Below are positions 3,001 to 20,452 of a stretch of 20,452 nucleotides of DNA, piece by piece. Below the pieces are notes generated by a model, which worked only from the letters and a program-made list of their open reading frames with translations, was not told the origin of the DNA and searched no databases. Every line of letters starts with the position of its first letter. The stretch's first letter is position 1. This DNA is from a virus. Made by a program: the position numbers and the translations under genes. The DNA is taken from the IMG/VR virus record IMGVR_UViG_3300006789_005095, positions 1 through 20,452 of that record; one strand, 5' to 3'.

Positions 3001-4706
3001 TATCATTTGGTGAAGAGTTTGATACTCGAGTATATTATTCTGAAACAAAGATCAATGGAGAAGCAAATGATTCATGGGCTGTATTTTTACAAAATAATTA
3101 TAAAGATGTAGAGGGAGTATATGGACCTCTAAATAAGCTTATTAGATTACATGATACAATGTACTATTTCCAGGATACTGGATTTGGAGCTTTATCAGTT
3201 AATCCAACTGCAATGGTACAAGCTGCTGATGGGACTTCGTTACAATTAGGAACTGTAAGTACAGGGGCTGGAGCATTCATACAAAGTTATAAATATATCT
3301 CAACTTTATATGGAGCAAAACAACAATGGGCAGTGACCCATTCAGATAATGCATTATATTTCTTTGATATAAATCAACGAAAAATGTTTACTTATAGTGG
3401 AGAAGGAACAATGCCAGTATCTGATATAGTAGGATTACATTCTTACTTTCAAGATAATTTAGTTGGAAGTATTTTAGTAAAAGATAATCCTATTCTTAAA
3501 GAAGGAATCTCTTGTGTGTATGATGCTGAAAACAATGAAGTTCTATTTACTTTCCATGATCAAGGATATAGTTCAGCTTATGAGATGCCTATAGTAAATA
3601 TACAAGAAGGAGGAGCTATGCCTAATAGAATACTTGCATTAACAGTACGTCCTGATAGTAATACATGTGATGATTGTTTTACTCAAGATTGTGATGACTA
3701 TTTTCCTGCTCCAGTTACTGTATCTGGATGGGTTATATTAACGAATATTTTACTTAATGCTGATGGTCCTTTTACTGGATTTATTTTAGGTAAATTTGGA
3801 TGTCCTGCTTTACCTATCCCAGTTCCTAATCCTCTAGGACATCAAATTGGAGATATACTTCTATGGATCCCAGAAGCTTGGAATTCATATCCTCCTGGAA
3901 TACAGCCTCCTGCTCGATATAGCGATATTGATATAAGTACTCTTCAAACGTTAACATCAGAATGTGGTATAGGAACTAATAGTTTTACTGTAGGATATAA
4001 TGAATTAGTTAAAGGATATACATCATTTTATGATTTTCATCCAAGTATTTATATAAACAGTGGTAGATTTCTTATTACTCCTAATACACAAAATCCATGT
4101 ATGTCTCCAGTGAGGTTTGGAGAAGATCAATTATATATGCATGGTGTTGGGACTTATGGAAAATTTTATGATATGATATACCAAAGCAGTGTAACATTAA
4201 CATCAAACCTGGAATCATCTGTCACAAAAGTTTTTGATAATGTTTCATTTCATATGGAAAGTTTATGGTTAGTAGGAAGACAAGATGAAGAACAAATAAA
4301 TATCTATGATAGAACCGTGACAGGACTAAACAGTGGGTTACCAAGTGTTCAGAATATAGATATAAAAAATAATACATTTGATAAAATACGATTTTATACT
4401 GATTATCAAATGAGTGATTATATAACATTAGTACCTGGTACGGGTGCCGGTACTAATATTAGAAAAGTAGAACGAGAATGGCAAACAATGGTAGCAAGGA
4501 ATATAATGGATGAGAATTTAGTAGATGCAGATATTTTTAATGTGTTTAATTATAATCCTACTAAACCCTTTAAAGATAGAATGAGAGATAAGTATTTATT
4601 TATCGATCTAATTTATAACAATTTTGATACTGAAACCGGAGAACCAAGGAATATTAAGTTTATTTTACACTACTTTAAAACTTTTTTTAGACCTTCTTAC
4701 CGATAA
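1..4706 (+). CDS. Tail muzzle / tail stabilization-type protein, 5'-truncated by window
   Basis: The frame is open from position 3, so the ATG at 159 is internal and the true start lies upstream; 1,567 residues are visible. Numbering from position 3, there is a YWTDNFNPPRKLN block at 34-46, a fibronectin-like AYRYKNAEGLVSDWSP block near 90-105, an FSIVRCDRK block near 520-530, a DTRVYYSETKINGE block followed by a GPLNKLIRLHDTMYYFQD stretch (about 1007-1060), a propeller-like YGAKQQWAV...ALYFFD segment near 1103, and YDAENNEVLFTF from 1173. The C-terminus (RMRDKYLFIDLIYNN ... FFRPSYR) is the usual ending of this family. These blocks recur in large tail proteins of crAss-like and other Bacteroidetes phages, annotated as stabilization protein (P22 gp10-like) or, in the crAss001 virion, muzzle, which closes the end of the short tail. 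There is no membrane segment. A CxxCx4C cluster sits at 1222-1230. Assignment is by pattern memory; another large tail-tip protein is the main alternative. Confidence 0.72.
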   Translation, partial: LECIYTRDLCINFTKQHPIEAIGRYEKIDIQGIYWTDNFNPPRKLNVANADAMATPCEFLDLAPKTGFSIPILNQVATGGNLLCGVYQLAYRYKNAEGLVSDWSPLSNLVPVYESSDTDPYCNISGGEFDMLTKKGTQSNKRIRWQLNNLDTAFEFLELCAIYHIDDVPGNEQIYIFSELTNGLTNLVVEHTGSEEFIPLTFTDFTTGIGATFEKVKTLSSKDNKLFFGNIVNTTFNVDYDARSYRFNAAQLAQLDSLSDLPVVINGTTPYAPGAGETAIDLVPEQHDAINPFNDENPATNANWFTNDQYTFQLDGATLGGSGHNVSYTFIRQQNEEDTIDNSVGHGPTANVYYTDHVNCTTTQVNPNRACFYAPQNTIGGSVSLGVPGDNYNMNNTYDNYKSPYKWSLYGAYARGETYRFGIVFYNNKGQASFVNWIGDIKIPFSYTTGLGNPFGFFHVSNWVGSPGSPTMLNTNDSLGNAPSFPREGTLFTNNIGIQFSVNLDPATSGIDIAALGITGFSIVRCDRKNNDKSKFGHGLAHTLDRLRMDEGEWAGMTNPQPNLWGGGNDEDIIIPSCGLYPSTCGGPIIAYMDAATGNASGVGNQCDLMPWNTGGGLDLGYDVCQTRKSELLLYGPLGWKNSDPTNTGNLNTGLGIDTAITSGDYIKIESVMAPQYNIGMNMDNWVPGGLVWRLYSNSWYKYYYGATMVGGVFGSNASALNYTYLNGVPSVATTQDPANSKQLIDWGSHVGDGLFIPETSDTSLEFSFMNASHPGGEFWTGMVWSPGDNWVSSRPQSIGSECFLLTLNQANQWQGANYLMGASLDAFATTTTVPNYRAIFSYEKYVVPYGGNTYANRSNSTYISTGHFYPILPLTLLTVPLVSQCWGGDTQCQLYDFTQYEKNWGQSGFENWDSLDAQGWSMPSNSGDAQWGVQWNCIFPTEAHMTNVLWRSGYHFNNKGGSGNAVPNNGTNLHDDMQLMAAYYSTNDVRSYFPKPLNVSFGEEFDTRVYYSETKINGEANDSWAVFLQNNYKDVEGVYGPLNKLIRLHDTMYYFQDTGFGALSVNPTAMVQAADGTSLQLGTVSTGAGAFIQSYKYISTLYGAKQQWAVTHSDNALYFFDINQRKMFTYSGEGTMPVSDIVGLHSYFQDNLVGSILVKDNPILKEGISCVYDAENNEVLFTFHDQGYSSAYEMPIVNIQEGGAMPNRILALTVRPDSNTCDDCFTQDCDDYFPAPVTVSGWVILTNILLNADGPFTGFILGKFGCPALPIPVPNPLGHQIGDILLWIPEAWNSYPPGIQPPARYSDIDISTLQTLTSECGIGTNSFTVGYNELVKGYTSFYDFHPSIYINSGRFLITPNTQNPCMSPVRFGEDQLYMHGVGTYGKFYDMIYQSSVTLTSNLESSVTKVFDNVSFHMESLWLVGRQDEEQINIYDRTVTGLNSGLPSVQNIDIKNNTFDKIRFYTDYQMSDYITLVPGTGAGTNIRKVEREWQTMVARNIMDENLVDADIFNVFNYNPTKPFKDRMRDKYLFIDLIYNNFDTETGEPRNIKFILHYFKTFFRPSYR

Positions 4707-4755: not shown

Positions 4756-7700
4756 ATGCTAATGGCAAAGAAAAAGAAACCAAATATAAGTAAAGATTAT
4801 TGGATGAAGTTTGGAGGTAGTCTTCGTAAAAAGAAAGTACCTAAAATGAATATGGGCGGTATTACAGGAAATATTAGCCTTCAAAATAACTTCGACAACT
4901 CACTTGGGTCTATCTTCGTTGATCCTGGAGGACCAGCTGCAGAATGGAATGGGTGGACTACACCTCTATATCCTGGACAACAAAGACAACATGTAACTAA
5001 GGGAACAGTAATTAGTCCTACTAATCCACAGTATATTCCAGGAGAACAGCGAGGGGGTAGTAGTAGTTCAGGATCTACAGATTATGTTTATCGCACGAAT
5101 ACAAAGAAACCTTATAAGTTTCATGAGTATGGAGGTACTCCTCAAGATGATCCTACATTTAAAATGTGGTTCGCGAAGAATGCTAGACGACCAGATGTTA
5201 TGAAGGTTTCTGGTAATACAGAGTCATTAAAACAATTATTTTTAACTGATATAAATCAAGATCAACTTCCATTATTTAGTAATGAGATGGATGATTATGG
5301 TGGGTCTGATAAATCTGTAAGACCATTTGATCTTAGTAGTAAAATTATAGGAGGATTAGAAAATATTAATACTCCTCCGCCTAGCAAAAGAAGTATAAGA
5401 AATAGTAGAAAAGCTGCAGGATTGAAAGAAGGTGAAACTATGAAACAATTTTGGGATCAGTATTTTCAGAAAGGATTAGAAGAACAAGAACAAATAAGAC
5501 AGCCAAAGGGATATGGAGGAAGAAATTTACCTAAAGCTGGATCTGGTATTAGAATTGATGCTACTAGAGATTACTCTGGTATAGCAGAAAGAAACCCAAA
5601 TTGGAAACAGGGTATGGGAACTGTAGGAGATACAAACATCTTACAAAAAGCGGGACCTTGGGGGATCTTAGCTGATATGGTATTTGATGCATTTGGATTT
5701 TCTGGGGATATGGAACAACATAAGGATAATGTACGAGATGCTCATGAATCTACAGGTACTTTAAATTTACTTAATAGAGATGGTGCTAATAAGGATAGTT
5801 TAGATATGTCAACACGAACTGATGCTCTAAATGCATTGGCTGGTTATTTAGGAACTCCTGCTCCAGATTTTATGAGTGAGCTAGCACCAGAATTAATACA
5901 AGGAGTAGGAGCTATGGCTACAAGCGGTGCTGGTAATAGTTTTAATATCGGTGGAGGAGGAGGTGGAGAAGTAGGAGATGTCATTGATTATGATGCTATA
6001 TCAGGAGGTACACATGCGAGATATGGAGGACATATGGCTGCAGAGTCAGGAATGGATCTTAGAAATTTACACCGTTTGGAAAATGGAGGGACTTTAGACC
6101 TAGGGCCAGGAGCCGGAACAGGTATACAGAAACTGGATAATCCATATTCTAACGAATCGTTAATGGAGAGTAGTGGAATAGATCAACTAAGTGCAGGAGG
6201 ACCATCTACACAGAATTATGAAGCAGAAGGAGGAGAAGCAATTATGCATGCAGAAGGAGGTCAACCAGCTACCACAGGAAATCTAGAAGAAGTATCTGCA
6301 AATGTATCTATGCTAGAAGGATCTAGTCATGAGAAAGGGGGTGAAGAAGTAACCGGAGAAGGGGAACAATATGTATTTTCTAAAAAATTAAAATCAGATA
6401 CATGGAAAAAATCATTTGCAGATGCAGCAGAAACAATAGCTAAGAATATAGAGAAGTTTGAAAAGGTTAGTACTGAAGAGGATTCAGATGAGATTACTAA
6501 ATCTACAGCAAATGCTATGATTCAATCTTGGCAACAAAAATTAATGGAGTTGCAACAAGAACAAGAAACAAAAAGACAAGAAAAGTTTATGGATATGATG
6601 AACAATGGAGCACCTGCAGAAGAATTACAAAAAGCTTTTCCAGATCTATATGAGCAATTTATGGCGGAGCAACAATTACAAGAACAAGCTCAGATGCAAC
6701 AAGGACAAGGGGGAATGGAACAAGAAGCACAAATGGCTGCTAACCCAATGGGAGATATAGATATGTCAGCTCTATCAGGAGATGCTCAACAAATGGTTGG
6801 TGCTAAATATGGATTACCTCAATATAATCATGGAGGTTCTCATGACGAGTTTACACCTTATAATTTTAATCAGTATTTTAATGATAATTTTAGTTGGAAT
6901 ATAGGAGATGAATCAGATGTAGACTTTGGACTGAAACGTAATAGGTATACTCCTAAGAAGAGTGAGTTATTAGATTACTTAACAATTAATTTCCCAGAAG
7001 AAGGATATAATTTTGGTTTAGGGGAGACTGAGGGAGGAGATATATATACTAATCCTAAAGATGCTTATAATGCATTACTTGCAGATTTTAGTACGGAAAG
7101 AGGTACACATTTAGAAGACAAAATTGGATTACAAACTAAACCAAAAAAGGATGATTACCGATCAGAAATTACAGTTCCAGATCCACGAGATGAAACAAAA
7201 ACAGTAACTAGTATGGATTGGACAGATGAGAATTCACAAACTCAATTTAATCAAGATGAAGCAGCATGGTCATTATATAATAGCGGTTTACCTAGTAACT
7301 GGGCAGAGAACTTTGGAGCAGATGCTGGTCTTAGCCAAAGAAAATATTTTAAAACTTTATATACAAGTTTAATAGCTAAAGGAACAGATCCAGAGATAGC
7401 ACAAAGTCTTGTTAATAAAGAAAAATTACAAAAAGAGGATATAGATGCAGCATTTTTAGAAATGGAAAATGAAGAAAAGGAATTAACTGATGCAGAGAAA
7501 GCGCAGTTAGAAATAGAGAAGATCGCTAAAGCAAAAAAGAATAAAGAATTACTTGGGAATATAGGAACAACTCTTACAGATCTAGCCCCAACATTCTATA
7601 ACTTAGCGATGGGTAATAAAGCAGCTGCGAAAACTCCATATGTAGGTAATAAATATGAAGATGATATACTAGATAATCTAGAAAAAATAGGAAATACTGA

Positions 7701-8205
7701 TATTGAGATGCAATTAGATCAGAATGAAGAAACACTTAATATGGCAAAGTATTTAGCACGACAACACTCTGATGGTTCGAGTGGAGGATATATGACTATC
7801 TTAAATCAGTTTATGAATGCAAAAACAGAGGCTGATAGAAAAGCATTCTTTGATAAATATAAGTTTGATCAAGCAGCTCTTACTACTGCGAATGAATCTT
7901 TATATAACCTTGGAGAAAAAGACAGAATTGAAAATACAGCTAGAATAGATTCAGACTTCCAACATGACGCAGCTAGAGAAGCATTCACTGCTAAAGGATG
8001 GGAAGGTATATCTGGCTATGCTCAATTACAACAAAAGATGAAGAATAGTGCAAATAGAGATGTAGAACTAAGAAGCTTACTTGATGATATATATCCTGAT
8101 GCTTCTTTATATATGAATTCAGAGGGCGATGTTGATATTCAAAAAATCTTAGGAGAGAATCCTGAGTTAATAGAATACTTCCAAAAATACTTTAAAACCA
8201 ATTAA
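4756..8205 (+). CDS. Predicted virion cargo/structural protein, Gly-Gly-rich, crAss-like phage type
   Basis: This 1,149-residue protein is unlike any enzyme I recognise. In order it has a very basic N-terminus (MLMAKKKK...KKKVPKMNMGG), scattered (Y/E/K/H)GG turns across residues 30-700, an amphipathic stretch near 300-316, a run of six glycines at 399-404, a conserved block AEGGEAIMHAEGG (490-502) then SSHEKGGEEVTGEGEQYVFS (523-542), a Gln/Glu/Met-rich coiled coil at about 590-670, YGLPQYNHGG at 685-694, and a helical C-terminal third with LAPTFYNLAMGN. Proteins with the 'SHxxGG...G.xYVFS' block and 'LAPxxYNL' segment are common beside tail genes of crAss-like and other Bacteroidetes phages; from its place next to the muzzle gene I infer a packaged, ejected cargo protein. 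It starts 49 bases after the muzzle gene. ATG 4762 (MAKKKK) is an equally good start; neither has a Shine-Dalgarno. The next gene follows after 2 bases, so the two are likely co-translated. Confidence 0.6.
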   Translation: MLMAKKKKPNISKDYWMKFGGSLRKKKVPKMNMGGITGNISLQNNFDNSLGSIFVDPGGPAAEWNGWTTPLYPGQQRQHVTKGTVISPTNPQYIPGEQRGGSSSSGSTDYVYRTNTKKPYKFHEYGGTPQDDPTFKMWFAKNARRPDVMKVSGNTESLKQLFLTDINQDQLPLFSNEMDDYGGSDKSVRPFDLSSKIIGGLENINTPPPSKRSIRNSRKAAGLKEGETMKQFWDQYFQKGLEEQEQIRQPKGYGGRNLPKAGSGIRIDATRDYSGIAERNPNWKQGMGTVGDTNILQKAGPWGILADMVFDAFGFSGDMEQHKDNVRDAHESTGTLNLLNRDGANKDSLDMSTRTDALNALAGYLGTPAPDFMSELAPELIQGVGAMATSGAGNSFNIGGGGGGEVGDVIDYDAISGGTHARYGGHMAAESGMDLRNLHRLENGGTLDLGPGAGTGIQKLDNPYSNESLMESSGIDQLSAGGPSTQNYEAEGGEAIMHAEGGQPATTGNLEEVSANVSMLEGSSHEKGGEEVTGEGEQYVFSKKLKSDTWKKSFADAAETIAKNIEKFEKVSTEEDSDEITKSTANAMIQSWQQKLMELQQEQETKRQEKFMDMMNNGAPAEELQKAFPDLYEQFMAEQQLQEQAQMQQGQGGMEQEAQMAANPMGDIDMSALSGDAQQMVGAKYGLPQYNHGGSHDEFTPYNFNQYFNDNFSWNIGDESDVDFGLKRNRYTPKKSELLDYLTINFPEEGYNFGLGETEGGDIYTNPKDAYNALLADFSTERGTHLEDKIGLQTKPKKDDYRSEITVPDPRDETKTVTSMDWTDENSQTQFNQDEAAWSLYNSGLPSNWAENFGADAGLSQRKYFKTLYTSLIAKGTDPEIAQSLVNKEKLQKEDIDAAFLEMENEEKELTDAEKAQLEIEKIAKAKKNKELLGNIGTTLTDLAPTFYNLAMGNKAAAKTPYVGNKYEDDILDNLEKIGNTDIEMQLDQNEETLNMAKYLARQHSDGSSGGYMTILNQFMNAKTEADRKAFFDKYKFDQAALTTANESLYNLGEKDRIENTARIDSDFQHDAAREAFTAKGWEGISGYAQLQQKMKNSANRDVELRSLLDDIYPDASLYMNSEGDVDIQKILGENPELIEYFQKYFKTN

Positions 8206-8207
8206 AA

Positions 8208-11200
8208 ATGGCCGTAAATAAATACATGAAGCCGGCTGAACAGCCTTTGTTAGATACTTATGTACCTCTTCCGTTTAAGGAATTGTCTTTAGCATACGCT
8301 ACAAAACAAAAGGAACATAATGACGCAGAAGAATTAGCAGGTAGTTTAGATGATAAGATTTTAAAAGTAAGAGCATCTACTCCTTTACATACTAGAGAGT
8401 TACTGAGAATTAGAACTGAGTTAGATACTGAATTAAACGATCTGATTACTAAGCATAATGGACGATATGCTGATATGGTTCCTTCACTTAATAAAATAAA
8501 GAAGAGAATTGATCAAGATTTTACTGATGGAAATTTATTTGCTATTAAAGAAACTACAAAACGTAAAGGAAAGTTAGATAAAGAAATAGAGAAACAAGAA
8601 AGTAAAGGAACTTATAGTGATGAGTATAGCCCTTGGTTAGGAGGAGAAGCTGAGTTTTCTCATTTTTATAATCAAGGTCTAGTTTCTGATGGTTCAGGAG
8701 GATATACATGGGATACAGATGCTAGTGCAGGATTTGAAACTAGGCCTGATGGAAGTCAAGTTCTAAAAACATATGAATATACTGGTTTACACAAAGGCTC
8801 AGAACAACTTAAGATTGCTAATGAGAATACATTTGATAAGATAAAACCAGATCTAAACTCATGGATGGAAAAAACTGAGAAGGGAGAAATGACAAAAAAT
8901 GAACTTAAACAAATCTCTTTATCTAAAATTTATAGAGCAGCTCATAATGACCATCCATATTATCCAGATGATTTCCAACAAGAATTAGATCTTATTGTAC
9001 ATAACTGGATGAAACCAGAAGCTGTATTATCATCAGCTATGAATGCTATTGATAATATATTTGGAGTAAATCCTACAGATGCTGATGTTAAAGAAGCTAA
9101 ACAGGATGCTATAGACGGGTTAAATGCAGATCAAATAGGAGAAGACGGTTATAACGGAACAGCTTATAATTGGGCTAAAACAGCTTATGTAGGATCTATG
9201 GGTGAGAAGTACTTAATGACTGATCAAGCATATTCACATACATTTGATGATAATTATGGTAATAAGAATAAGAATGCAGTACCAAGAACTGATTGGGTAC
9301 CAATAGTTGAAAGTACAACTCCATTTGTACAGGCTGGAAAACCTAGAGATATACATGGAGATTATATAAATGAGTCTTCTAATCCAATAGCAGAGTATCT
9401 AAAAATTGTAGATACTAATAAAAAGACTCTTATGCAGATTAATCAGGAGTATCAAGACATAGTAAACAGCGGTGCTAATTTAGATGATGATTATATAGAT
9501 GAATGGCAAGAGAAAATTAATACAGCAGAGTATCAATATGATGCTTCAGCTTTTGCTGCAGTTAATTTAATTCAAGACGCAGCTACCAATCTAGGTCTAC
9601 GAAAAAGAGGAAATTATCTAATATACCATCAAAACGGAACAAGAAAACAAGTCCTAATAGGAAGTACTGATTACAATCTAAATGGATGGGCAGCTGTTCA
9701 ATTTGATGATAATGGAGTACCGTATGATGTAGAAGATTCAGATTATAGAAACCTTAGACGACCAGGAAGTGCTTATAATTATCTTGATGTAAGTCACGGA
9801 TTACTAGCAGGAGTTTATCATATAGAAGCTAATTCTGGTAATTCACCTTTATTTGATGAAGCGGATAGAATACAAGCCTCTATGGGTACAGACGGATACT
9901 TTGGAGGAAGATCAATCAAATTACCTATGTTCTCTACAACAAGTAGTAAACAAATGGATGAAAGTATACTTACTAATCTAGTTACGACATTGTCTAAAGA
10001 AGATCAATATTTTAGAACTAGCTCAGGAACAGAAGTTACTCTTAAAGATCTTATAACTGGAGTTGATATTGGAGGAGACACAAAGAAGATTGATCAAGAT
10101 ATTATAGATGACTTTGATAAATATGTAAAAACTACGCAATGGACAGCAGTTCCTGATCCGGCTACAGGTAGTTACCTTGGAGTAATAACTATACCGTTAA
10201 AAAATCCTTCTGGAACGAATGCTACAATGAATCTTTATTACCCTGCTCCAAAAGAAGTAATGGAAACTTGGAGAAGACAGGGAGAATATGAAGAAGTTCT
10301 TGATGAAGATTTAGGAACTACTCATAAGATAACAAGACCTAGAACAGCTGTAGAAAAAGCTAAATGGGATGATATATTCCATGCACAGTTAGATATTCAA
10401 AGAGCGATCTCTGTACCAGGAAATGTACAAATGAGTTCATATGAAGATGGTGAAGGTAATCCATTAGGATTCTTTTATTTTTCAGAGCTGCCTAATGGCC
10501 AACCTATTCTAAATGAACAGTATATGTTCCAACCACAAGCAGGATTAATTGCAGGTATAAACCCGCAAGATGGAAGTACTATATATACTACTGGAAATGA
10601 ATTATATAATGTAGATACTGATGTAGATAAATTAGGATATTTAATTTCTTTAAATGATCCTAATATGGAAGCTAGTAGAGCCTTTTGGATGAATCAGGCC
10701 CAAGCGCCTGAAACACCTATAGCTGTTGAAGGAAGCACTCTTCAAGAGCCTGCAACCGGTGTTGGTTCAGATGTCTCAGGTAAACCATTTGTTACACAGT
10801 TAAGGAAAGGACAATACATGTTCCCTGATGATAGATTAGAAGGTACAGATGATATACTTAATTATGGAGGGATTACAAAGGATGTCGTAGGATTACAAAA
10901 ACAAACTGCAGTAATATTTGCTGAAGCAGGTAATAAATATAATGTAGATATGATAGACTTTATGGAGAAAGAGTTAGATAAGATAGAAGCTGATGGAGAA
11001 ACACATGTTGAATTAGCAGATGGGTCAAAAATAACATTAGCACATGCTATTAATCAAGGATATGTAACTTTACAACCTGTCTCTGGAGGAACGTCTAGAT
11101 ACATGGACCAAGGGTTTAGAGTACCTTTAGCTAGTGGAGCTCGAACTTATGAAAAACAACTTAAAATGTATAATGAGTGGGTAGACGGTGGAAAAAATGG

Positions 11201-11621
11201 GCCGCCTGTTGCTAATCCTGCAGAAGGAGGATTCCATGTGATGGGACAAGCTGCAGATCTAGACCAGAACGAAGCTATGTATGATTGGGTCTTTACTACG
11301 ACGGGAGATGTAGTAGGAATAGGAGGACTAAATGCAGGAGTTAATACTGTATACCAAGGTCTAGACGCAACTCAGAAAACTGTAACTGGAATATTAGCAA
11401 GTGAGCTGCAAAAAGATGATGGAACTAAGATCTTCCCAAATTTCAAAAACGCTAGTTTAAAAACATTATTTACTTCACTAGATAAAGCACATTCCAGTTC
11501 ACCGCGACCACTTCTAGGACCAGGATTAAAACAGTTTGATCAAGAATGGTGGCATTGGTCACAAGGAGAAATTACAGGAACACCAGCGGCTACGTATACG
11601 TATCCGTCATGGGCAAATTAA
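8208..11621 (+). CDS. Predicted virion cargo protein with C-terminal M15-type murein peptidase domain
   Basis: This protein has 1,137 residues; its ATG follows the previous TAA by 2 bases. The N-terminus (PLLDTYVPLPFKEL at 13-26, then charged helices to about 130) is typical of a Bacteroidetes/crAss-like phage family coded beside the tail genes. The middle (about 130-900) is mixed helix and strand with no motif I can name. The C-terminal 200 residues carry the LAS-family metallopeptidase signature of Peptidase_M15 (VanY/D,D-carboxypeptidase and phage L-Ala-D-Glu endopeptidase type): SGAR at 976-979 with Q984, HVMGQAAD with metal ligands H1010 and D1017, and EWWHW with catalytic E1113 and ligand H1116. 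It probably cleaves a peptidoglycan stem peptide. There is no signal peptide or holin-like segment, and the domain is fused to a large virion-type protein, so I infer local wall opening during DNA entry and not lysis. Exact bond specificity cannot be told. Confidence 0.7.
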   Translation: MAVNKYMKPAEQPLLDTYVPLPFKELSLAYATKQKEHNDAEELAGSLDDKILKVRASTPLHTRELLRIRTELDTELNDLITKHNGRYADMVPSLNKIKKRIDQDFTDGNLFAIKETTKRKGKLDKEIEKQESKGTYSDEYSPWLGGEAEFSHFYNQGLVSDGSGGYTWDTDASAGFETRPDGSQVLKTYEYTGLHKGSEQLKIANENTFDKIKPDLNSWMEKTEKGEMTKNELKQISLSKIYRAAHNDHPYYPDDFQQELDLIVHNWMKPEAVLSSAMNAIDNIFGVNPTDADVKEAKQDAIDGLNADQIGEDGYNGTAYNWAKTAYVGSMGEKYLMTDQAYSHTFDDNYGNKNKNAVPRTDWVPIVESTTPFVQAGKPRDIHGDYINESSNPIAEYLKIVDTNKKTLMQINQEYQDIVNSGANLDDDYIDEWQEKINTAEYQYDASAFAAVNLIQDAATNLGLRKRGNYLIYHQNGTRKQVLIGSTDYNLNGWAAVQFDDNGVPYDVEDSDYRNLRRPGSAYNYLDVSHGLLAGVYHIEANSGNSPLFDEADRIQASMGTDGYFGGRSIKLPMFSTTSSKQMDESILTNLVTTLSKEDQYFRTSSGTEVTLKDLITGVDIGGDTKKIDQDIIDDFDKYVKTTQWTAVPDPATGSYLGVITIPLKNPSGTNATMNLYYPAPKEVMETWRRQGEYEEVLDEDLGTTHKITRPRTAVEKAKWDDIFHAQLDIQRAISVPGNVQMSSYEDGEGNPLGFFYFSELPNGQPILNEQYMFQPQAGLIAGINPQDGSTIYTTGNELYNVDTDVDKLGYLISLNDPNMEASRAFWMNQAQAPETPIAVEGSTLQEPATGVGSDVSGKPFVTQLRKGQYMFPDDRLEGTDDILNYGGITKDVVGLQKQTAVIFAEAGNKYNVDMIDFMEKELDKIEADGETHVELADGSKITLAHAINQGYVTLQPVSGGTSRYMDQGFRVPLASGARTYEKQLKMYNEWVDGGKNGPPVANPAEGGFHVMGQAADLDQNEAMYDWVFTTTGDVVGIGGLNAGVNTVYQGLDATQKTVTGILASELQKDDGTKIFPNFKNASLKTLFTSLDKAHSSSPRPLLGPGLKQFDQEWWHWSQGEITGTPAATYTYPSWAN
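11082..11582 (+). other. Peptidase_M15 / LAS metallopeptidase domain
   Basis: Approximate domain, residues 959-1125 of the second cargo protein. S976-G-A-R979 corresponds to the substrate-binding SxxR motif, H1010-x6-D1017 (HxxGxAxD form) supplies two zinc ligands, and E1113-W-W-H1116 supplies the catalytic Glu and third ligand. All key residues are present, so the domain should be active. About 95 residues separate the second and third motifs, which seems rather long and suggests an insertion (VVGIGGLNAGVNTVYQG region). Confidence 0.8.
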
Positions 11622-11643: not shown

Positions 11644-14600
11644 ATGAGTAATGGAAAAGATAAACCAAATAAAAGGGGTAAGATAACTATTCCTACGGCT
11701 AATGTACAATCTTCATTAGATCCGATCACAAATTTACCAGTAATCCAGGAACATATTGTTCCGCCAGATGTTACTGATTCATATGACTTATATAGAAGTG
11801 TTAATCCAGGAACCCATCCTGGCCAACTGAATACTCCAGATGTTAGTGAGCTTAACTTCTATGGTATGGATGATGTTACTTGGGATGTAGATCGACCAGA
11901 TAAGATAGATTATCGAAGAGCCATGAATCAGAGTGGTTGGGAACAGTTTGGAGCATTCTTAAATCAGTCTATAATAGGAGAAGTAATAGGAGGAACTGTA
12001 GAAGGGATTGGCGCACTTATGGATTATCCAATTAATTGGATAATAGAAGCATATACTGGTAAAAAGCAGTACCAAGATTATGAAAACGGTCTTACTAGAA
12101 TAGGATCTGGCGTTCGAGAATGGACGATGGATGCTACTCCAATTTATCAAAAATCTACAGCAAAATGGAATCCATCTGACTCTGGATGGTGGGCTCAAAA
12201 TGGTGTATCTGTAGCTTCTACACTTTCTTTATTAATTCCAGCTGCTGGAGCTGTAAGAGCAGTTGGTATGGTAGGAAAGATGGGGAGAATGGTAGCTGGA
12301 GCAGGTAAGCTCTCTAAAAGCGCTAGGGTTGCAAAGACATTTGCAAAAGCTGAAAATCTAATGACTTTAAGTAAAACTGGTAAATGGCTTGCTAAGTCAA
12401 CAGTTATGGGAGTAAGTATGCGTCATATGGAAAACTTCCGAGAAGCTTCGGAAACTTATAAGGTTTCACTAGATAAAAATTATGAGTTTTTAAGGAAAGG
12501 AGATAATTTAGAAAATTTCTTAAACTCTGGTGAAGGAGAAAAATTTAAAGCTGAAAATGGCTTTAAAGATAATTCAGAGGTCAGCGCACAAATAGTAGCA
12601 AACTATTTAGCTAGTAATGCAGCATCACACTCTTATAATATGAATTGGGCTAATGTAGGATTTGATATATTACAATCTGCATTATTTTTAAAAGGAGCAA
12701 GAATAGGAAGAACACGTACTGGTGCATTTTCTAGACCGTCTAAAGCAGTTACAAAAGCTCAGAATAACACACTGAAAAATCCTAAAATCCCAAGAACTAA
12801 AGTTGGTAAATTTGTTAAGTGGGCTAAACCTGTAGTACCATGGGCTGCCTGGTCTTATTCAGAAGGTATGGAAGAGCAATGGAACTTTATTTCTATGCAA
12901 GAAGGAATTAGAAAAGGAGATATTATGGCTGGAAACACTGGATGGATGAATGAAGGTTTTATGCCACACGAGATGGGCTTTGGCGCTAGGATAAAACGAT
13001 ATTTTGCGGATGATGAATTATGGACTTCAACATTATTTGGTTCAATAGGAGGGGGTGTCTTTACCACTGTTTCTAATCTAAAGAATAGGAAAGCTCAAGC
13101 TGCGCTAAACGAGCAACGAATTATAGAGATAGGACAACGATCAGAGTTTATTCAGAAAGCTTTAGATAAGAAAAATGCTGCTTTAGAAAGAGGAGACGTA
13201 AATGCAGCAGAAGAACAAGATATGTTATTAGGAATGAATCTTGCAATTAGCGCTGCGAATGCGGGAAATGTAGATATGTTAATTGAGATGCTTAATGATC
13301 CAGCTTTTGAGGAGACTTTAGAAAAAGCCGGAGTCCCAAAAGCTGAGGTAGAAGCTAACAAAAACTCGTTAATTAAGATAATAGAAAATACAGAAAAGGT
13401 ATACCAGAAGTATACTAATAGACTTACAGATAAAAAGTGGGGTCCTGGAACCGCGCAAGCATTAACACAGTTAGAAACGTTAGTTAATATTTATGATGAA
13501 CTTGTTAATAATGTAACTACTCAACTTGCTGATAATGAGCAAAATGATGTATACAGTAAAGAACAATTTAGTATTGGCCCAAATACTAAAGCGCGATATG
13601 ATGCTATGACTTCTCGAAAGATGTTAGAAGAGCAATTAGAATCTTATGAAGCTATGAGAACTAGAGCTGCAGCGCAGAGCCAAGATAAAAGTCTTACAAA
13701 ACAGGAAAGAAAAAACGCTGAAGAAATAACAAAAGCTATAGATAATATACTTGAACCTTATAAGGCTAAGTTAGCAGAAGCTCAGAAAGACGAAATAAAA
13801 TTAAAAGCTGAATCTCAAGAAACTTATGATTCAAAAGCACTTGCTGCAGAAAATAAGTTTTTAGATACTATTAATTCTGGAGGAGAACAAAGTTTAAAAG
13901 CAAAGAAAGAAGAATATAAATATCATAGAGATACTGCATGGCAAGCTATGCAAGATATATTAAATGGAGAATCTATTAAAACAAAAAATAAAGAAGGTAA
14001 GATTTCTGATACAAGTTTTAAAGGAAAAGAGGATCAAAATACTAAGCTTAGAGACGATGCTACAGTTAATAATGAAGAAGCTATTAAAGTATCTGTTGAG
14101 AATAGAGCAATATTAGAAGATTTTAGAACTCTAATAACTGAGAATCCTGATATTACTGAAGATCAAGTGAGAGATTTCTTTGCGCAGTATCCTGATAATG
14201 CATACATTCAAGAACAAGGTAGAGAAATATTAAATAATTTTATAAGAAGTTCTGTAAATAATTCAATGCATACTATGTATGAAGAATTATATGCACAAGC
14301 AAATCAAACATCTAAAGAAGTAAGTGAACATATAGATGAAAAAATTGAAGCTTTAAAGAAAGAAATATTTGATCCTAAAATTAGTCGGAAAGAACAAGCT
14401 CGTAGAGTTCAAATGGAACAAGATTATAAAGAAGCTGGAGCGAGGGGAGCTAAAATCTTATACGGCGTATCTGAGAGTCAAGACTATTTAATAAAAAACC
14501 TATTTGATAATTATACTACAGTAGTTCCAGTAGTATGGGGAGAAAAAGTAGGAGCTATCTATAGAGATACAAAAACAAATGAACTTATATTTAGAGAAGG

Positions 14601-17600
14601 CGCAACAAATAAAGAGTACATTATTCAAGAAGAGATCTCAAATAAAGAATTTTTAGATAGTAACGGTAAATTAATGGAGGGTCCTTCTCTAGGGTATCTC
14701 GATATGCTCTTATTAAGAGATTCAAATTATAATATTAATATAGTAGAAGATGGAAGAACATTTAATATAGAAGGAGAATACTTTAATAATTTAGCAAGTG
14801 ATCCTACTACAGCTATTGAATACGACACAGATGCAAACGTTGTTTCAGTAACATTAACAAAATGGGATGGAACAAAAGTAACTTTTACTAGCCCAGGAAT
14901 TACATATGAACTAGCAGATCTTATAGAAACTTTAGAAGCCGTTAAAAGAACTAGATTTAATGAGTTAGTTAAAGATGATTTTTTAATTATTGAACATGAA
15001 GGAAAAGAATATATTATAAGTTATGAAGAACAGGGTTTAACAGCTAAAGATATAAATGGAAAGCCTTTAAAAGATAATTTAAATGAAATCATATTAAGAA
15101 AAGCTAATATTCAACTTAGCAATGCTATACAAAATGAAATTAATAACCTTAAAACAGAATACAATGAAACAATCACAGCTACTAATGCTGTTGCCAGCCC
15201 AGTTACAGAAACAAATCTTATGTCTCCCGAAATGGGAGAGAGTGAAAACGCTCAAGAAGCTGAGAAGCGGGAAGAATCCAAAATCATTGCGACCAATACA
15301 ACGGTTAACCCAAAACCCAGCGTAAAACAATCTAAGACTGAGCAGCAAGAGCAAGAACGATTATTAACTATCCAAGAAAATAAAGTTGAGATAGGTCAAA
15401 GCACTTCCGATGAGAAGACTGCACCAATAGAAGCTTCAGATACTAGGCTTGAAGAGCTTAGAAATGAAGTAAAAGCTTTACGAGCACAATTAGAAACTGA
15501 AGAAGGTAGAACTCATGGTGGTTTTATACGGTCAAAAATTGCAAAGTTAGAAGCAGAGATAAAACAACTGGAAGCTGTTGACGAACAACTTCAAGTTATT
15601 GAGGCTACTACAAATACACAAACTGGCCAAACAACTGAAGAACAAGAAAGTACTATAGTTACTGATAATACTCCTACTACAGCTGGAACAGTAGTGCTTA
15701 ATAAAACTTATCCGCGTGCATGGTCTCAACAATTTATGGGAGTTCCTGAATCTGATAAGTCAATAGCTCCTAAAGGATTTTTAACTCTGAGAGACGCAAA
15801 TGGTAATTTAATTCCTGTTTATTCTAGTACTAGCGGTGCTGCATATGTAATTAAGAATGCTAAAGATATGTCGAATGAAGAGCGTAGATTATTAAGCGAA
15901 GGCTCTGAAAGAATTAAGACATTACATTATTTTGAACCTCAAGTAGATTCAAATAATAATACAATACTAGAAGGAAGTCGAGTTATTGAATCAGAAAGTC
16001 TTAAACAATATCAAAGAGAAGGTGAATTTCAGGTTATTGTATTTAAAGCAGACGCAATAAAAGAGTCTGATATAATCAGGATGGATTTAACTAATAGTGC
16101 TGAAGTTGGAATTGGGACAAATATAATCCTTAGAGTAGAGCCTAGTAATCCTTATTACAAACCTCCTACTGCAGAACGAGAAGCAAGTATTGTAATTACT
16201 GTAAGGCTAGCTTCTAATCCATCTATTATTTTAGCAAAATTAACTAAGGGTGATAGGTTTAGAGTGCAGAATGCAAAGCTAAGAGCTAAGATTGAAAAGA
16301 TGTATAAAGGAGAACGAACTGTTGATATTCAAGCCAAGATAGCAGGAAAGACAAATGGTTTTGTTATTAACCAAAAAACTAATGGGGGTGAATCTTTACA
16401 ACAACCAATCTCTATATTAGGACCAGATATAACTCTTGGAATACACCAAGGAGAATCAGGTATTGTATATAATAATACTGATATACCTAGCTATAAGTCT
16501 GTATATTCTGAAAATGGATATATATATGCAGCTATTAAATCTGCGAGTGGTAGAATGGTACCTGTAAGAATAGCAACTTCTACATTAAGCGAGGCTGCAG
16601 TTCAAGTTATTTTAGATACACTTACTAATGATACTATAACCGCTAAAGATAAACAAGCTATTGTAAATCAAATAGTTCATATTCCATTAGGATCCAGAAA
16701 AGATGATAACTTTAAATTGGGAGGTAAGATGAAAAGAATTCTTGCAATGGATAACTTTGTTTTAAAAATCCCATTTGGTGAGGGAAGAGTGATTGGGATC
16801 CAGTATAATATGGAAGGAAGTGAACAATATAAACGTAATAATTTAAAGAATGCTTTAGAAGGTAAAGAATTCTTTTTTAAATTATATGATGAACAAGGTA
16901 ATTTAACATCAGGTGAAGGCGCAGTAATCGGAACAGCTGGATCCTCAGTTCAAAGAAATTCATTATTAAGTAGTAAACTTTTAGAGCTACAACCAGGAGA
17001 GATTAAAGCAGCTATATTAGAACACTTAAGCTCTAAGGTTTATCATGTTGAAAAAAATAAGATTAATACTAAAGATGAATACTTTAGTCCTTTACGTCAA
17101 GAACCTTTTAAGAATTATTTAGATTATTTAGGTGAATCAGGAATCTTAACAACAGATATTCCAGGAGTAAATGAACAACAATTTCATCATGCTGCTATTT
17201 ATGTTGAGGTAAGCGATGAAATTATAGAAGCATCTCAATCTGATGTACCATCTTTTATGACAGGTGCTGTAGAAGTAATGGGAACTCCAGAGATTATAAT
17301 TGAGCAAGAACAACAAACATTAGAAGATTTATTAGCGGGACAAGTTCCAGATGAATTAAAAGATAAAAAAACTGAGACGCCAGGTAAGGGTAAGATTGAT
17401 GAGATAAATCCAGATAATATAGATGATGAGTTTAAGTTAAGAAAATATGAAGATTTTGAAGGTAATTATGATATTATCACAGAAGGAGAAAAAGCTTGGT
17501 TCTTATCCAGATTTGGGGAAGAAGGTTTAGAATTAATAAATAGAGTTAAGTATTTAATGCTTAAGGATGGACGTCAGGCTTATGGTTATTACCATAAAGG

Positions 17601-20452
17601 AATGGCTATTGTAGCAGGCGAAGCAAAAGAAGGGACAATTTATTGGGAAGGTTTCCGTCGTATTTATGATATGCATTTAACCGATGAGGAGAAGACTACT
17701 ATTGAGATGGAAGTTATAGAAAAATGGAATGTATCTGGTGAAGAGGTTGAAACAAAATTAGCATCAGAGTTTATGAAATATAAACTGAATCAAAATGAAA
17801 AAGGTTTAGGCGCTAAAGTAAAAAGATTCTTCCGTGAATTGTGGTATTACATGAAGAATATGATGGGAATGAAAAATGAAATCCAACGTCTATTTAGAGA
17901 TTTAGATACGAGAGATTTTACTAAGTATACAGCTGAAGAAGCAGCCACTTTATCAGAAGTTACTGTTCCTAAACTAAGAGCAAAGAAAGGATTTTCTACG
18001 GATCAAGTTGACGAAATTGTTGGTGGTATAAACTTTAATCTTATAGGTACATTACAAGAAAATTATGGAGAGAACTGGATTGATGAGTTAAGTAATGGGG
18101 CTGTTCTAAAAAGTGCTTATGAATCAGTTAGACAAACTATTGCAGCAAAAGCTATAAAGATTAATAACGTAACTGAGAAGAGTGAAGATCTTACTATATT
18201 AGGAAAAACATATGCTACAGTATCTGACCCTTCCATATGGTATGATAAACCTGATAAGTATGGAAATATAATAAGTCCAGGATTTATTACTCTTGCTACA
18301 AAAGAATTAGAAAATATCGGAGTTAAATATAAAGTAAATCAAAAAGGAGGAATTGATTTTAATAAAGCTCCAGGAATAGAAACAGTTACTGAAGAAATTT
18401 CAGAAGAGATAACTGATTATGAAGAGGTACAAACTGAAACGAAACAACATATTTTTAATATTAATTTTTATCATACTCCTGTAAAAGACACATTATCTAG
18501 AGACATTAAAATTGGTTTAAGCTTTATAAAAAGTAAAGAAAAAGGAAAAGTATTTGGTAATTATAGATATGTACCATTCGATGAGGTATATGCATACTTA
18601 TCAATAGCTCTTGCAAATACACCAACTGGAGATGTTATTACTAGATTATCTCAATTAGCTGAGAAAGGAGCACATCCATTAGTAAATGAAGTGGTAGAAG
18701 TGTATGGACAAGCTACAAAGCAATGGCAAAATAAATTTGCTGCTCATTTCAATAAACAAAATATTAGATTTAAAACTTTAATCATAGAAGATGGCGCTGT
18801 TAAAGTAGTATTTACTAATAGAAATGGCCTAGAAAGACAAATCATCAGTAAATGGATTGATAATAGAGGAAGTACTGATATTTATATACCGACAACTGGG
18901 AAACCAGATTTAATAAACGATCAAGCAGTTAAGAAACTTGATGAGCTATATAAAGAAACACAAAGACTTTCTAAACTTGGTAACAAGAAAGACTATTTAA
19001 TTAGTATGTTTAAGACATTAGAATATGCTGGAATCTCATTAGGCAATGAAGTCTATAGAGCTATGTTGAATGATGACACTACGCAAATAGCAGATCTTCA
19101 TTCATATATGGTAGGAAATAGGTCCTTTGAGCATATATTAAAAGGTTTAAAGAGAGCAATTCCAACAAGTCCTTATCTTGCGGGAAGCGCAGAAACTTCT
19201 ACACTAAGAAGACTAGCTTCTTTAGCAGCTGCATTTAGAATAGATAATTATGGTGCATCCTTTTTGAGCGGCGCGAAGAAACCAATCTACGCTATTAATT
19301 TAAACACGTATGATTCTAAACTAACACTTAAATTACGATCAGATGAGACTTATGAACAGGTTATACTAGATAGATTTAGAGATACTTTTTATAGTCCTGG
19401 TAAAAATATGAGACATCTAATCTTAGATATGTTATTAACTAATCCAGAAGTTCGTGCTAATTTCCAATTAAGTACTTTTGATGTAATTAAAGAGAAAGGA
19501 AATGCTGGACGAGCGACTGCATTCGATGGGATGAGCCAGTTATTATCTGCTCAAACTAGATTTGCTATGTTCTTTAATAGCGGATTAGAATTTGGTGAGT
19601 TTAATACTGGTACTAAAGCAGATAAATCACAGTCTAAATATATTACTTTACCAAAAATATCTCCAGATGGTAGATTTAATAGCACCTTATGGAAATCAGG
19701 AAATGATAGATCTTATAATGGATGGATTAAAACTGCAGTAGAGTTATTAAAACCTGCGGTCTATGGGGAATTAGCCAGAATAGCTAAAACAAATAAACAG
19801 TTATTTGGGAATAATCCAATAAGTATAGATGAGCAAGTTAAAAATATTCATTATAGAAACGTTAAAGGAGATAATGAAGGGAATGGATTAAGTTTTATAG
19901 CATTTCCAGAATTAAATGATCCAAGATATAATTTCTTTACGCCTCATGGTAAACTAAATAATATATTTGAAAATCTTAGTTCTATGGCTGCTGTAGAAAA
20001 ACAGAGAATAGATATTGGAGATGCGCTAACAAGATATGTAAAAGATAATATAGCTTCTACAATGGAAGCATTAGAATTGGCTGGAACTATAACTAAACGT
20101 AATAATAAATATGAAAATATAAACTTACCTGGAATGGCATTATCGGGTAAGACTGTTCAAGGAGACATATCTCCAGCATTAGTAGAGTTTGCAGTGAATG
20201 ATTTAGTATATAGACCATATATTAATACAACATTTGGACCTGACTTAGCTTATTACCAGACAGATGAGAATGGAAATCCTATTGTTGATGCAGGGAAAAG
20301 AGCATACCAATCAGTTACCCCGGGAATTGATGCTGTATGGAATGAAGAAAAGCAATATGGTCTTCCGAATAAATTTTCACATGCTATCTTACAAGACATA
20401 TTTAAAGATAAAGAAGAACATATACAAAAGATATTAGAAACAGCGGGAGTTG
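11644..20452 (+). CDS. Giant multidomain virion protein, probable N-terminal part of virion RNA polymerase polyprotein (3'-truncated)
   Basis: I read this frame through from ATG 11644 to the window end without a stop: 2,936 codons, continuing beyond. The layout is: amphipathic hydrophobic helices at about 103-135, 187-211 and 461-479; charged coiled coil at about 480-900; beta-rich modules at 900-1150; a Thr/Glu/Gln-rich linker with a leucine-heptad coil (1267-1320); beta-rich modules at 1360-1930; a decayed zincin-like domain near 1935-2080; and a final 700 residues resembling the segment before the polymerase core in Bacteroidetes phage giant proteins (PIYAINLNTY, ADKSQSKYITLP, FAVNDLVYRPYI, FGPDLAYYQ...KRAYQSVTPG). 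In crAss-like phages the virion RNA polymerase (phi14:2 gp66 type) has a DxDxD catalytic loop; none is present here, so the core should lie downstream. The protein is inferred to be packaged, ejected and active in early transcription. A giant polyvalent structural protein without polymerase is the alternative. The start follows the previous stop by 22 bases. Confidence 0.65.
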   Translation, partial: MSNGKDKPNKRGKITIPTANVQSSLDPITNLPVIQEHIVPPDVTDSYDLYRSVNPGTHPGQLNTPDVSELNFYGMDDVTWDVDRPDKIDYRRAMNQSGWEQFGAFLNQSIIGEVIGGTVEGIGALMDYPINWIIEAYTGKKQYQDYENGLTRIGSGVREWTMDATPIYQKSTAKWNPSDSGWWAQNGVSVASTLSLLIPAAGAVRAVGMVGKMGRMVAGAGKLSKSARVAKTFAKAENLMTLSKTGKWLAKSTVMGVSMRHMENFREASETYKVSLDKNYEFLRKGDNLENFLNSGEGEKFKAENGFKDNSEVSAQIVANYLASNAASHSYNMNWANVGFDILQSALFLKGARIGRTRTGAFSRPSKAVTKAQNNTLKNPKIPRTKVGKFVKWAKPVVPWAAWSYSEGMEEQWNFISMQEGIRKGDIMAGNTGWMNEGFMPHEMGFGARIKRYFADDELWTSTLFGSIGGGVFTTVSNLKNRKAQAALNEQRIIEIGQRSEFIQKALDKKNAALERGDVNAAEEQDMLLGMNLAISAANAGNVDMLIEMLNDPAFEETLEKAGVPKAEVEANKNSLIKIIENTEKVYQKYTNRLTDKKWGPGTAQALTQLETLVNIYDELVNNVTTQLADNEQNDVYSKEQFSIGPNTKARYDAMTSRKMLEEQLESYEAMRTRAAAQSQDKSLTKQERKNAEEITKAIDNILEPYKAKLAEAQKDEIKLKAESQETYDSKALAAENKFLDTINSGGEQSLKAKKEEYKYHRDTAWQAMQDILNGESIKTKNKEGKISDTSFKGKEDQNTKLRDDATVNNEEAIKVSVENRAILEDFRTLITENPDITEDQVRDFFAQYPDNAYIQEQGREILNNFIRSSVNNSMHTMYEELYAQANQTSKEVSEHIDEKIEALKKEIFDPKISRKEQARRVQMEQDYKEAGARGAKILYGVSESQDYLIKNLFDNYTTVVPVVWGEKVGAIYRDTKTNELIFREGATNKEYIIQEEISNKEFLDSNGKLMEGPSLGYLDMLLLRDSNYNINIVEDGRTFNIEGEYFNNLASDPTTAIEYDTDANVVSVTLTKWDGTKVTFTSPGITYELADLIETLEAVKRTRFNELVKDDFLIIEHEGKEYIISYEEQGLTAKDINGKPLKDNLNEIILRKANIQLSNAIQNEINNLKTEYNETITATNAVASPVTETNLMSPEMGESENAQEAEKREESKIIATNTTVNPKPSVKQSKTEQQEQERLLTIQENKVEIGQSTSDEKTAPIEASDTRLEELRNEVKALRAQLETEEGRTHGGFIRSKIAKLEAEIKQLEAVDEQLQVIEATTNTQTGQTTEEQESTIVTDNTPTTAGTVVLNKTYPRAWSQQFMGVPESDKSIAPKGFLTLRDANGNLIPVYSSTSGAAYVIKNAKDMSNEERRLLSEGSERIKTLHYFEPQVDSNNNTILEGSRVIESESLKQYQREGEFQVIVFKADAIKESDIIRMDLTNSAEVGIGTNIILRVEPSNPYYKPPTAEREASIVITVRLASNPSIILAKLTKGDRFRVQNAKLRAKIEKMYKGERTVDIQAKIAGKTNGFVINQKTNGGESLQQPISILGPDITLGIHQGESGIVYNNTDIPSYKSVYSENGYIYAAIKSASGRMVPVRIATSTLSEAAVQVILDTLTNDTITAKDKQAIVNQIVHIPLGSRKDDNFKLGGKMKRILAMDNFVLKIPFGEGRVIGIQYNMEGSEQYKRNNLKNALEGKEFFFKLYDEQGNLTSGEGAVIGTAGSSVQRNSLLSSKLLELQPGEIKAAILEHLSSKVYHVEKNKINTKDEYFSPLRQEPFKNYLDYLGESGILTTDIPGVNEQQFHHAAIYVEVSDEIIEASQSDVPSFMTGAVEVMGTPEIIIEQEQQTLEDLLAGQVPDELKDKKTETPGKGKIDEINPDNIDDEFKLRKYEDFEGNYDIITEGEKAWFLSRFGEEGLELINRVKYLMLKDGRQAYGYYHKGMAIVAGEAKEGTIYWEGFRRIYDMHLTDEEKTTIEMEVIEKWNVSGEEVETKLASEFMKYKLNQNEKGLGAKVKRFFRELWYYMKNMMGMKNEIQRLFRDLDTRDFTKYTAEEAATLSEVTVPKLRAKKGFSTDQVDEIVGGINFNLIGTLQENYGENWIDELSNGAVLKSAYESVRQTIAAKAIKINNVTEKSEDLTILGKTYATVSDPSIWYDKPDKYGNIISPGFITLATKELENIGVKYKVNQKGGIDFNKAPGIETVTEEISEEITDYEEVQTETKQHIFNINFYHTPVKDTLSRDIKIGLSFIKSKEKGKVFGNYRYVPFDEVYAYLSIALANTPTGDVITRLSQLAEKGAHPLVNEVVEVYGQATKQWQNKFAAHFNKQNIRFKTLIIEDGAVKVVFTNRNGLERQIISKWIDNRGSTDIYIPTTGKPDLINDQAVKKLDELYKETQRLSKLGNKKDYLISMFKTLEYAGISLGNEVYRAMLNDDTTQIADLHSYMVGNRSFEHILKGLKRAIPTSPYLAGSAETSTLRRLASLAAAFRIDNYGASFLSGAKKPIYAINLNTYDSKLTLKLRSDETYEQVILDRFRDTFYSPGKNMRHLILDMLLTNPEVRANFQLSTFDVIKEKGNAGRATAFDGMSQLLSAQTRFAMFFNSGLEFGEFNTGTKADKSQSKYITLPKISPDGRFNSTLWKSGNDRSYNGWIKTAVELLKPAVYGELARIAKTNKQLFGNNPISIDEQVKNIHYRNVKGDNEGNGLSFIAFPELNDPRYNFFTPHGKLNNIFENLSSMAAVEKQRIDIGDALTRYVKDNIASTMEALELAGTITKRNNKYENINLPGMALSGKTVQGDISPALVEFAVNDLVYRPYINTTFGPDLAYYQTDENGNPIVDAGKRAYQSVTPGIDAVWNEEKQYGLPNKFSHAILQDIFKDKEEHIQKILETAGV
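15106..15708 (+). other. Low-complexity linker and coiled coil inside the giant protein, with a base-composition shift
   Basis: Residues about 1155-1355 of the giant protein are rich in Thr, Glu, Gln, Ser and Asn and poor in aromatic residues. A leucine-heptad coil lies at 1267-1320 (RLEELRNEVKALRAQLE, then KLEAEIKQLE). Around 15190-15350 codons rare elsewhere in the window cluster (GCC, AGC, CCC, TCC, CGG, ACC, ATC). I read it as a flexible inter-domain hinge separating an ejection-type N-terminal half from the later modules. Confidence 0.55.
17446..17883 (+). other. Degenerate zincin-like domain (HExxH replaced by WEGFR)
   Basis: Residues about 1935-2080 of the giant protein read AYGYYHKGMAIVAGE, then TIYWEGFRRIYDMHLTDEE (1999-2016), then EEVETKLASEFMKY (2033-2046). 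Related phage and mobile-element polyvalent proteins have the same order: a strand, 'HEafH', a helix ending in '(S/T)xEE', then 'EExxAxxFxxY'. Here the Glu is kept (E2002) but both zinc His positions are Trp and Arg (W2001, R2005). The fold is probably retained and catalysis lost. The alignment is by eye, so this is tentative. Confidence 0.45.
18241..20452 (+). other. Region resembling the segment upstream of the virion RNA polymerase core
   Basis: Residues about 2200-2936 carry, in order, a KVFGNYRYVPFDEVYAYL block, QNKFAAHFNKQNIRF, a LASLAAAFRI...GAKKPIYAINLNTY block, ANFQLSTFD, ADKSQSKYITLP, and FAVNDLVYRPYI...FGPDLAYYQ with KRAYQSVTPG (2885-2894). From memory, giant proteins of crAss-like phages show comparable blocks (NKxxxxF, INLNTYLS, sDKS, vNdxI..E..., GDPAxYK, KR...sPG) before a DFDxDK catalytic loop. 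No polymerase catalytic motif is visible within the window. Confidence 0.45.

Follow-up and report, generated by a model that had tools for sequence, protein, structure and literature searches.

The 20,452-nucleotide stretch of viral DNA analysed here (the window) ends in a giant open reading frame that very probably encodes the front half of a one-piece crAss-like virion RNA polymerase, this being the explanation that best accounts for its sequence features as a whole. The first-pass annotation had described an open frame of at least 2,936 codons reaching the edge, and this is what is seen, with an ATG at 11644 and no stop codon inside the window. As the window is the entire IMG/VR record, the frame is interrupted by the end of the contig. 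The probability of an equally long open frame arising by chance is ~10^-112 at the 33.8% GC content of this DNA. The features discussed below are listed in Table 1.

Table 1. Features of the window, in order of position
Feature	Residues of giant ORF	Position	Strand	Basis
crAss muzzle protein, 5' end lost to contig edge		3..4706	+	PF25731, E 1.5e-108; PF25729
crAss cargo protein 1 homologue, weak		4756..8205	+	PF25725, E 2.6e-4, under Pfam cut-off
Virion/cargo protein with C-terminal M15/VanY-like peptidase domain		8208..11621	+	FHVMGQAADLD...EWWHW; PHROG endolysin, E 5.8e-4
Giant ORF (P0001)		11644..20451	+	ATG start, 2,936 codons, still open at contig end
crAss gene 1 conserved N-terminal domain	82-594	11887..13425	+	tblastn; hhalign; hydropathy
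Apparently beta-rich region	930-1870	14431..17253	+	Clade alignment; low-confidence AlphaFold, pLDDT 46
Degenerate zincin domain	1947-2088	17482..17907	+	Zincin HMM, alignment, blastp
N-terminal part of gp66-type, putatively two-barrel RNA polymerase	2198-2936	18235..20451	+	hhalign; 6VR4 matches; motif positions

Relatives of the giant ORF

Searching Pfam and PHROGs with the giant ORF itself gave nothing usable. Relatives were found in IMG/VR (L001, L002/L008, L004/L005, L006, L007, L026 and L030; L002 and L008 come from opposite ends of a single 88.7-kb contig and overlap within the giant ORF), the closest of which, L001, is 61% identical to the window's protein over residues 7-2935. At the nucleotide level, the differences between the window and L001 amount to 0.29, 0.21 and 0.45 at codon positions 1, 2 and 3, respectively, and are thus highest at third positions. 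Relatives in which the polymerase core can be seen share about 42-61% identity with the window. In L001, the frame is a single complete ORF of 5,542 amino acids (622 kDa), and the open frame of 5,520 codons in L026 was also counted as complete. The window's own ORF presumably continues as these do, as the front part of a frame of ~5,500 codons. No second IMG/VR contig matched the exact DNA from near the end of the window. A search of GTDB genome contigs yielded no relatives.

Read from the N-terminus, the L001 protein comprises an RNAP-associated cargo region (gene 1), a dead zincin, a gp66-type polymerase (gene 2) and an RNAP-associated C-terminal part (gene 3), the last of these matching gene 3 of Dulem virus 41 (E 1e-70).

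The polymerase part

Because the record stops ahead of the catalytic core, the polymerase core is seen only in the relatives. The motif GSDFD[IV]DK is present in each of the six relatives whose sequence extends to the core (L001, L002, L004, L006, L026 and L030). In L001 the motif lies at residue 3335 and the window ends at the equivalent of L001 residue ~2899, so that the catalytic loop is expected ~436 residues beyond the edge, in support of the earlier proposal that it would be found just outside the window. The contig ends ~70 residues ahead of the first conserved lysine block. Two such blocks, DPRKTYY(Y/F)G and QIKHS (L001 residues ~2970 and ~2994), align with QPLKGVYFG and LKYSQ of gp66, and the lysines of DPRKTYYYG and QIKHS are likely to be those of the first barrel.

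Comparison with phi14:2 gp66, suggested in the first-pass annotation, was well founded. Searches of the PDB with the L001 segment and with a profile of the clade each gave a single match, the gp66 structure 6VR4 (E 3e-20 and 5.7e-28, respectively), and the profile aligns with it in colinear stretches (138-251 with 237-361, 490-873 with 644-1031 and 1187-1260 with 1329-1401), the colinearity with gp66 beginning at about window residue 2275. The DxDxD loop of the relatives lies in the gp66-like block that matches 6VR4 residues 1329-1401; the window stops before it.

Evidence from the window's own part comes from hhalign. With a query restricted to the window-anchored profile (residues 1920-2936), residues ~2198-2899 matched four gp66-type polymerases in their N-terminal halves (probability 98.6%, score 137); gene 3 proteins, aligned as a control, gave 0.1% and a score of 18. 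The last ~700 residues can therefore be equated, as had been claimed, with the blocks ahead of the DFDxDK loop, and this without recourse to the core. An HMM of the window tail alone gave no direct match to 6VR4; longer relatives and profile-profile comparison were required. Sequence blocks for both barrels are found in the relatives; the AlphaFold models, which do not extend to the core, are poor, with mean pLDDT values of 39 for residues 1920-2936 (5 rows) and 46 for residues 930-1925 (7 rows), and could not be used. A tree of polymerase cores groups the members of the window's lineage together with good support, on a long branch, but does not settle the placement of the lineage among the families, as long branches meet.

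A degenerate zincin at the gene 1/gene 2 junction

Ahead of the polymerase part, an HMM trained solely on intact zincins from other crAss lineages matches the window (E 7.8e-17) and those relatives that cover this stretch, and blastp of the domain against Dulem virus 41 gives an E value of 7e-13. Where HExxH belongs, however, the window has YWEGFR (residues 2000-2005, nucleotides 17641-17658). The same pattern, YWE[AGS]FR, is present in seven of seven members (the window, L001, L002, L004, L006, L026 and L030), whereas other lineages have YHEAFH-like sequences; both zinc-binding histidines have therefore been lost. In the window and L001 the position of the third zinc ligand is altered too (LASEF). 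Fusion by itself does not explain the loss of the zincin, since Suoliviridae in which genes 1 and 2 are fused retain HExxH. Nor is the domain essential across the order, given that some Steigviridae proteins (phi14:2 gp67 and the cr106_1 gene 1 protein) have no recognisable HExxH.

The giant ORF had initially been termed a polyprotein. The intact protease signature that self-processing calls for at the junction is missing from every member, a result that covers the zincin domain only and, as the zinc ligands are gone, leaves a self-cleaved polyprotein unsupported for the one protease domain within the window. Self-processing, whether by the chain's own zincin or by another phage protease, would involve cuts at the old gene boundaries and would leave virions holding the usual two or three proteins. 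It fits with the separate genes of other crAss lineages, whose boundaries fall at the same places, and with the intact YHEA[FW]H zincin found at the same junction in the Suoliviridae gene 1-2 fusions. Set against this are the replaced histidines, the changed third ligand and the lack of any known cleavage site, and we regard self-processing as unlikely. From the sequence, a single uncut chain of ~620 kDa appears the more likely product, with cleavage by another phage-encoded protease a possibility.

Other identities for the giant ORF

The polymerase of coliphage N4 is T7-like. An N4-type (T7-like) vRNAP was considered and rejected, as the core of the relatives matches only 6VR4 by sequence and no T7- or N4-type PDB chains. 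More broadly, the ORF might encode some other large ejection or structural protein (an N4-type vRNAP, for example) that is related to crAss gene 1 in its N-terminal part alone. The window does stop short of the polymerase core and the layout of N4 vRNAP is comparable, with an N-terminal domain, an RNAP and a C-terminal HExxH-containing part (PMC12633501). The putative two-barrel DxDxD block of the relatives, with its sole PDB match, nevertheless refutes such an identity for them, and the resemblance of the window tail to the front halves of gp66-type polymerases makes it very improbable here. It is likewise very improbable that the fused ORF is an artefact of assembly or annotation, as an in-frame TAA near the start of the L004 ORF (near 10739) might suggest, for this single stop, whether a sequencing error or a point mutation, is missing from L005 (99.95% identical to L004 over 2,100 bases), L001 and L026 both have complete ORFs of ~5,500 amino acids, and L002 and L008 share sequence within the ORF, where the two can be joined without a break in the frame.

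Regions ahead of the polymerase

The N-terminal domain of the crAss-like polymerase chain has tblastn matches in crAss002, p-crAss and jaberico (E down to 2e-21) and aligns with Intestiviridae gene 1 in hhalign (probability 100, E 1.7e-44), a gene annotated as 'RNAP associated protein fused to zincin protease'. The domain is helical and glycine-rich, and hydropathy analysis identifies a hydrophobic segment at residues ~193-211. The region that follows appears beta-rich, is conserved in the clade and contains a low-complexity linker (residues ~1190-1345). The initial view that the regions preceding the polymerase are mostly undescribed does not hold for residues 82-594, which were already known as RNAP-associated.

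Upstream genes

The Crass-fold muzzle protein encoded at the left end of the window (PF25731, E 1.5e-108) places the virus in the order Crassvirales. The window's gene order of muzzle, cargo, cargo and giant ORF is that of the named crAss phages, in which stabilisation/muzzle genes are followed by two cargo-like genes and then by the transcription block, so that the giant ORF occupies the genomic place of gp66-type genes, behind the tail stabilisation/muzzle and cargo genes.

Within the second cargo-type protein, the M15/VanY-like peptidase domain to which it is joined corresponds to window positions 11109-11618. The domain is clearest in the L001 counterpart, where the match to VanY (PF02557, E 1.9e-6) is over the Pfam cut-off. 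It is probably a virion-borne peptidoglycan hydrolase that aids ejection.

Gene fusion across crAss lineages

In the lineage of the window, genes 1, 2 and 3 are all found in one ORF, whereas the named families sampled use two or three genes. Steigviridae have three. The phi14:2 polymerase (6VR4) shares with the window's lineage its colinear sequence, its loop (GSDFDIDKMY), the lysine blocks and its place after the muzzle and cargo genes, but gp66 (2,180 amino acids) is separate from its neighbours gp67 (gene 1; 1,797) and gp65 (gene 3; 1,421) rather than part of one chain. In Intestiviridae and Crevaviridae, gene 1 is separate and genes 2 and 3 are fused (1957 and 4070 amino acids in p-crAss, 2020 and 4245 in crAss002, about 2509 and 4133 in cr127_1). 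The p-crAssphage gp45 and gp44 and crAss002 gp32 and gp33 proteins have a homologous gene 1 N-terminal domain and core; unlike the situation in the window, Intestiviridae gene 1 is an ORF of its own (~2,000 amino acids) that carries an intact HExxH zincin towards its end. The converse arrangement, with genes 1 and 2 fused and gene 3 separate, is seen in Suoliviridae and Flavobacterium phage Fpv1 (4946 and 1667 in cr118_1, 4551 and 2007 in cr1_1, 4401 and 1596 in Fpv1); for Crevaviridae and Fpv1, whose match to the core is weak, the genes were assigned from their position and size. The giant ORFs of Suoliviridae (cr118_1, cr1_1 and cr52_1; 4,464-4,946 amino acids) resemble that of the window in having a zincin at the junction but differ in keeping HExxH and a separate gene 3, and in some members TAG encodes an amino acid.

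Two other systems invite comparison. The crAss001 proteins gp47, gp49 and gp50 are likewise RNA polymerase-associated cargo, packaged in the crAss001 virion (PMC10172136), but are encoded separately, by three genes distributed over two strands. The vRNAP of coliphage N4 (gp50, about 3,500 amino acids) is, like the chain proposed here, one giant ejected polypeptide with an N-terminal domain, an RNAP and a zincin-bearing part; the polymerase of the window's lineage, however, appears to be of the two-barrel type and belongs to a separate family.

What is new, as judged from these sequences, is the full three-gene fusion with a degenerate zincin, giant crAss polymerases being already known. Our survey sampled about 16 genomes, and crAss polymerases as long as ~6,000 amino acids are already mentioned in a review (PMC10136315); we therefore make no claim to priority for the full fusion.

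Possible role of the fused chain

In the literature, phi14:2 gp66 is an active polymerase that serves in rifampicin-resistant early transcription, and the phi14:2 and crAss001 counterparts are virion proteins, those of crAss001 being the homologues gp47, gp49 and gp50 (PMC10172136, PMC6235969). By homology, the giant chain would be synthesised late in infection and, as for crAss001 and phi14:2, would be packed into the capsid beside other cargo proteins. It would then be ejected via the tail, partly unfolded, and refold in the host, where the polymerase would transcribe the early genes, the chain remaining uncut throughout. Packing in the capsid, ejection in a partly unfolded state and use in early transcription is the most likely course of events. 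More tentatively, and with a little less than even confidence, we suggest that the whole ejected transcription block is one permanent ~620 kDa chain with its boundary protease inactivated, loaded, threaded and working uncut, which would fix both a 1:1:1 ratio of the parts and an N-to-C order of ejection.

The fused lineage offers a natural experiment on how the parts of giant crAss polymerases are stored, ordered and ejected. An all-in-one chain with a degenerate junction protease suggests that the parts can work without being separated, and the contrast with the partly fused Suoliviridae, in which the zincin is intact, provides a direct way to test what the zincin does.

Further domains of the transcription block

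The gene 3 part of L001 includes a PD-(D/E)XK exonuclease-like region (residues ~4330-4550; PHROG 298, E 3.9e-12). In cr112_1, the region matching this stretch (E 2e-6) sits in gene 1, and the domain thus seems to have been relocated within the block. At about residue 4210 of L001 (LPEEAGHFYVEMM) there is a second zincin-like motif, EExxH, which is conserved in Steigviridae gene 3 proteins (ALPEEFAHF); phi14:2 gp65 and the gene 3 proteins of cr7_1 and cr1_1 have a true HExxH in their N-terminal parts. Finally, Fpv1 gp33 (L031, 2013-15218), a 4,401-amino acid 'virion structural protein', shows a weak match to the polymerase region (E 1e-3), and Fipvunavirus may be related to the crAss phages, though filed outside Crassvirales.
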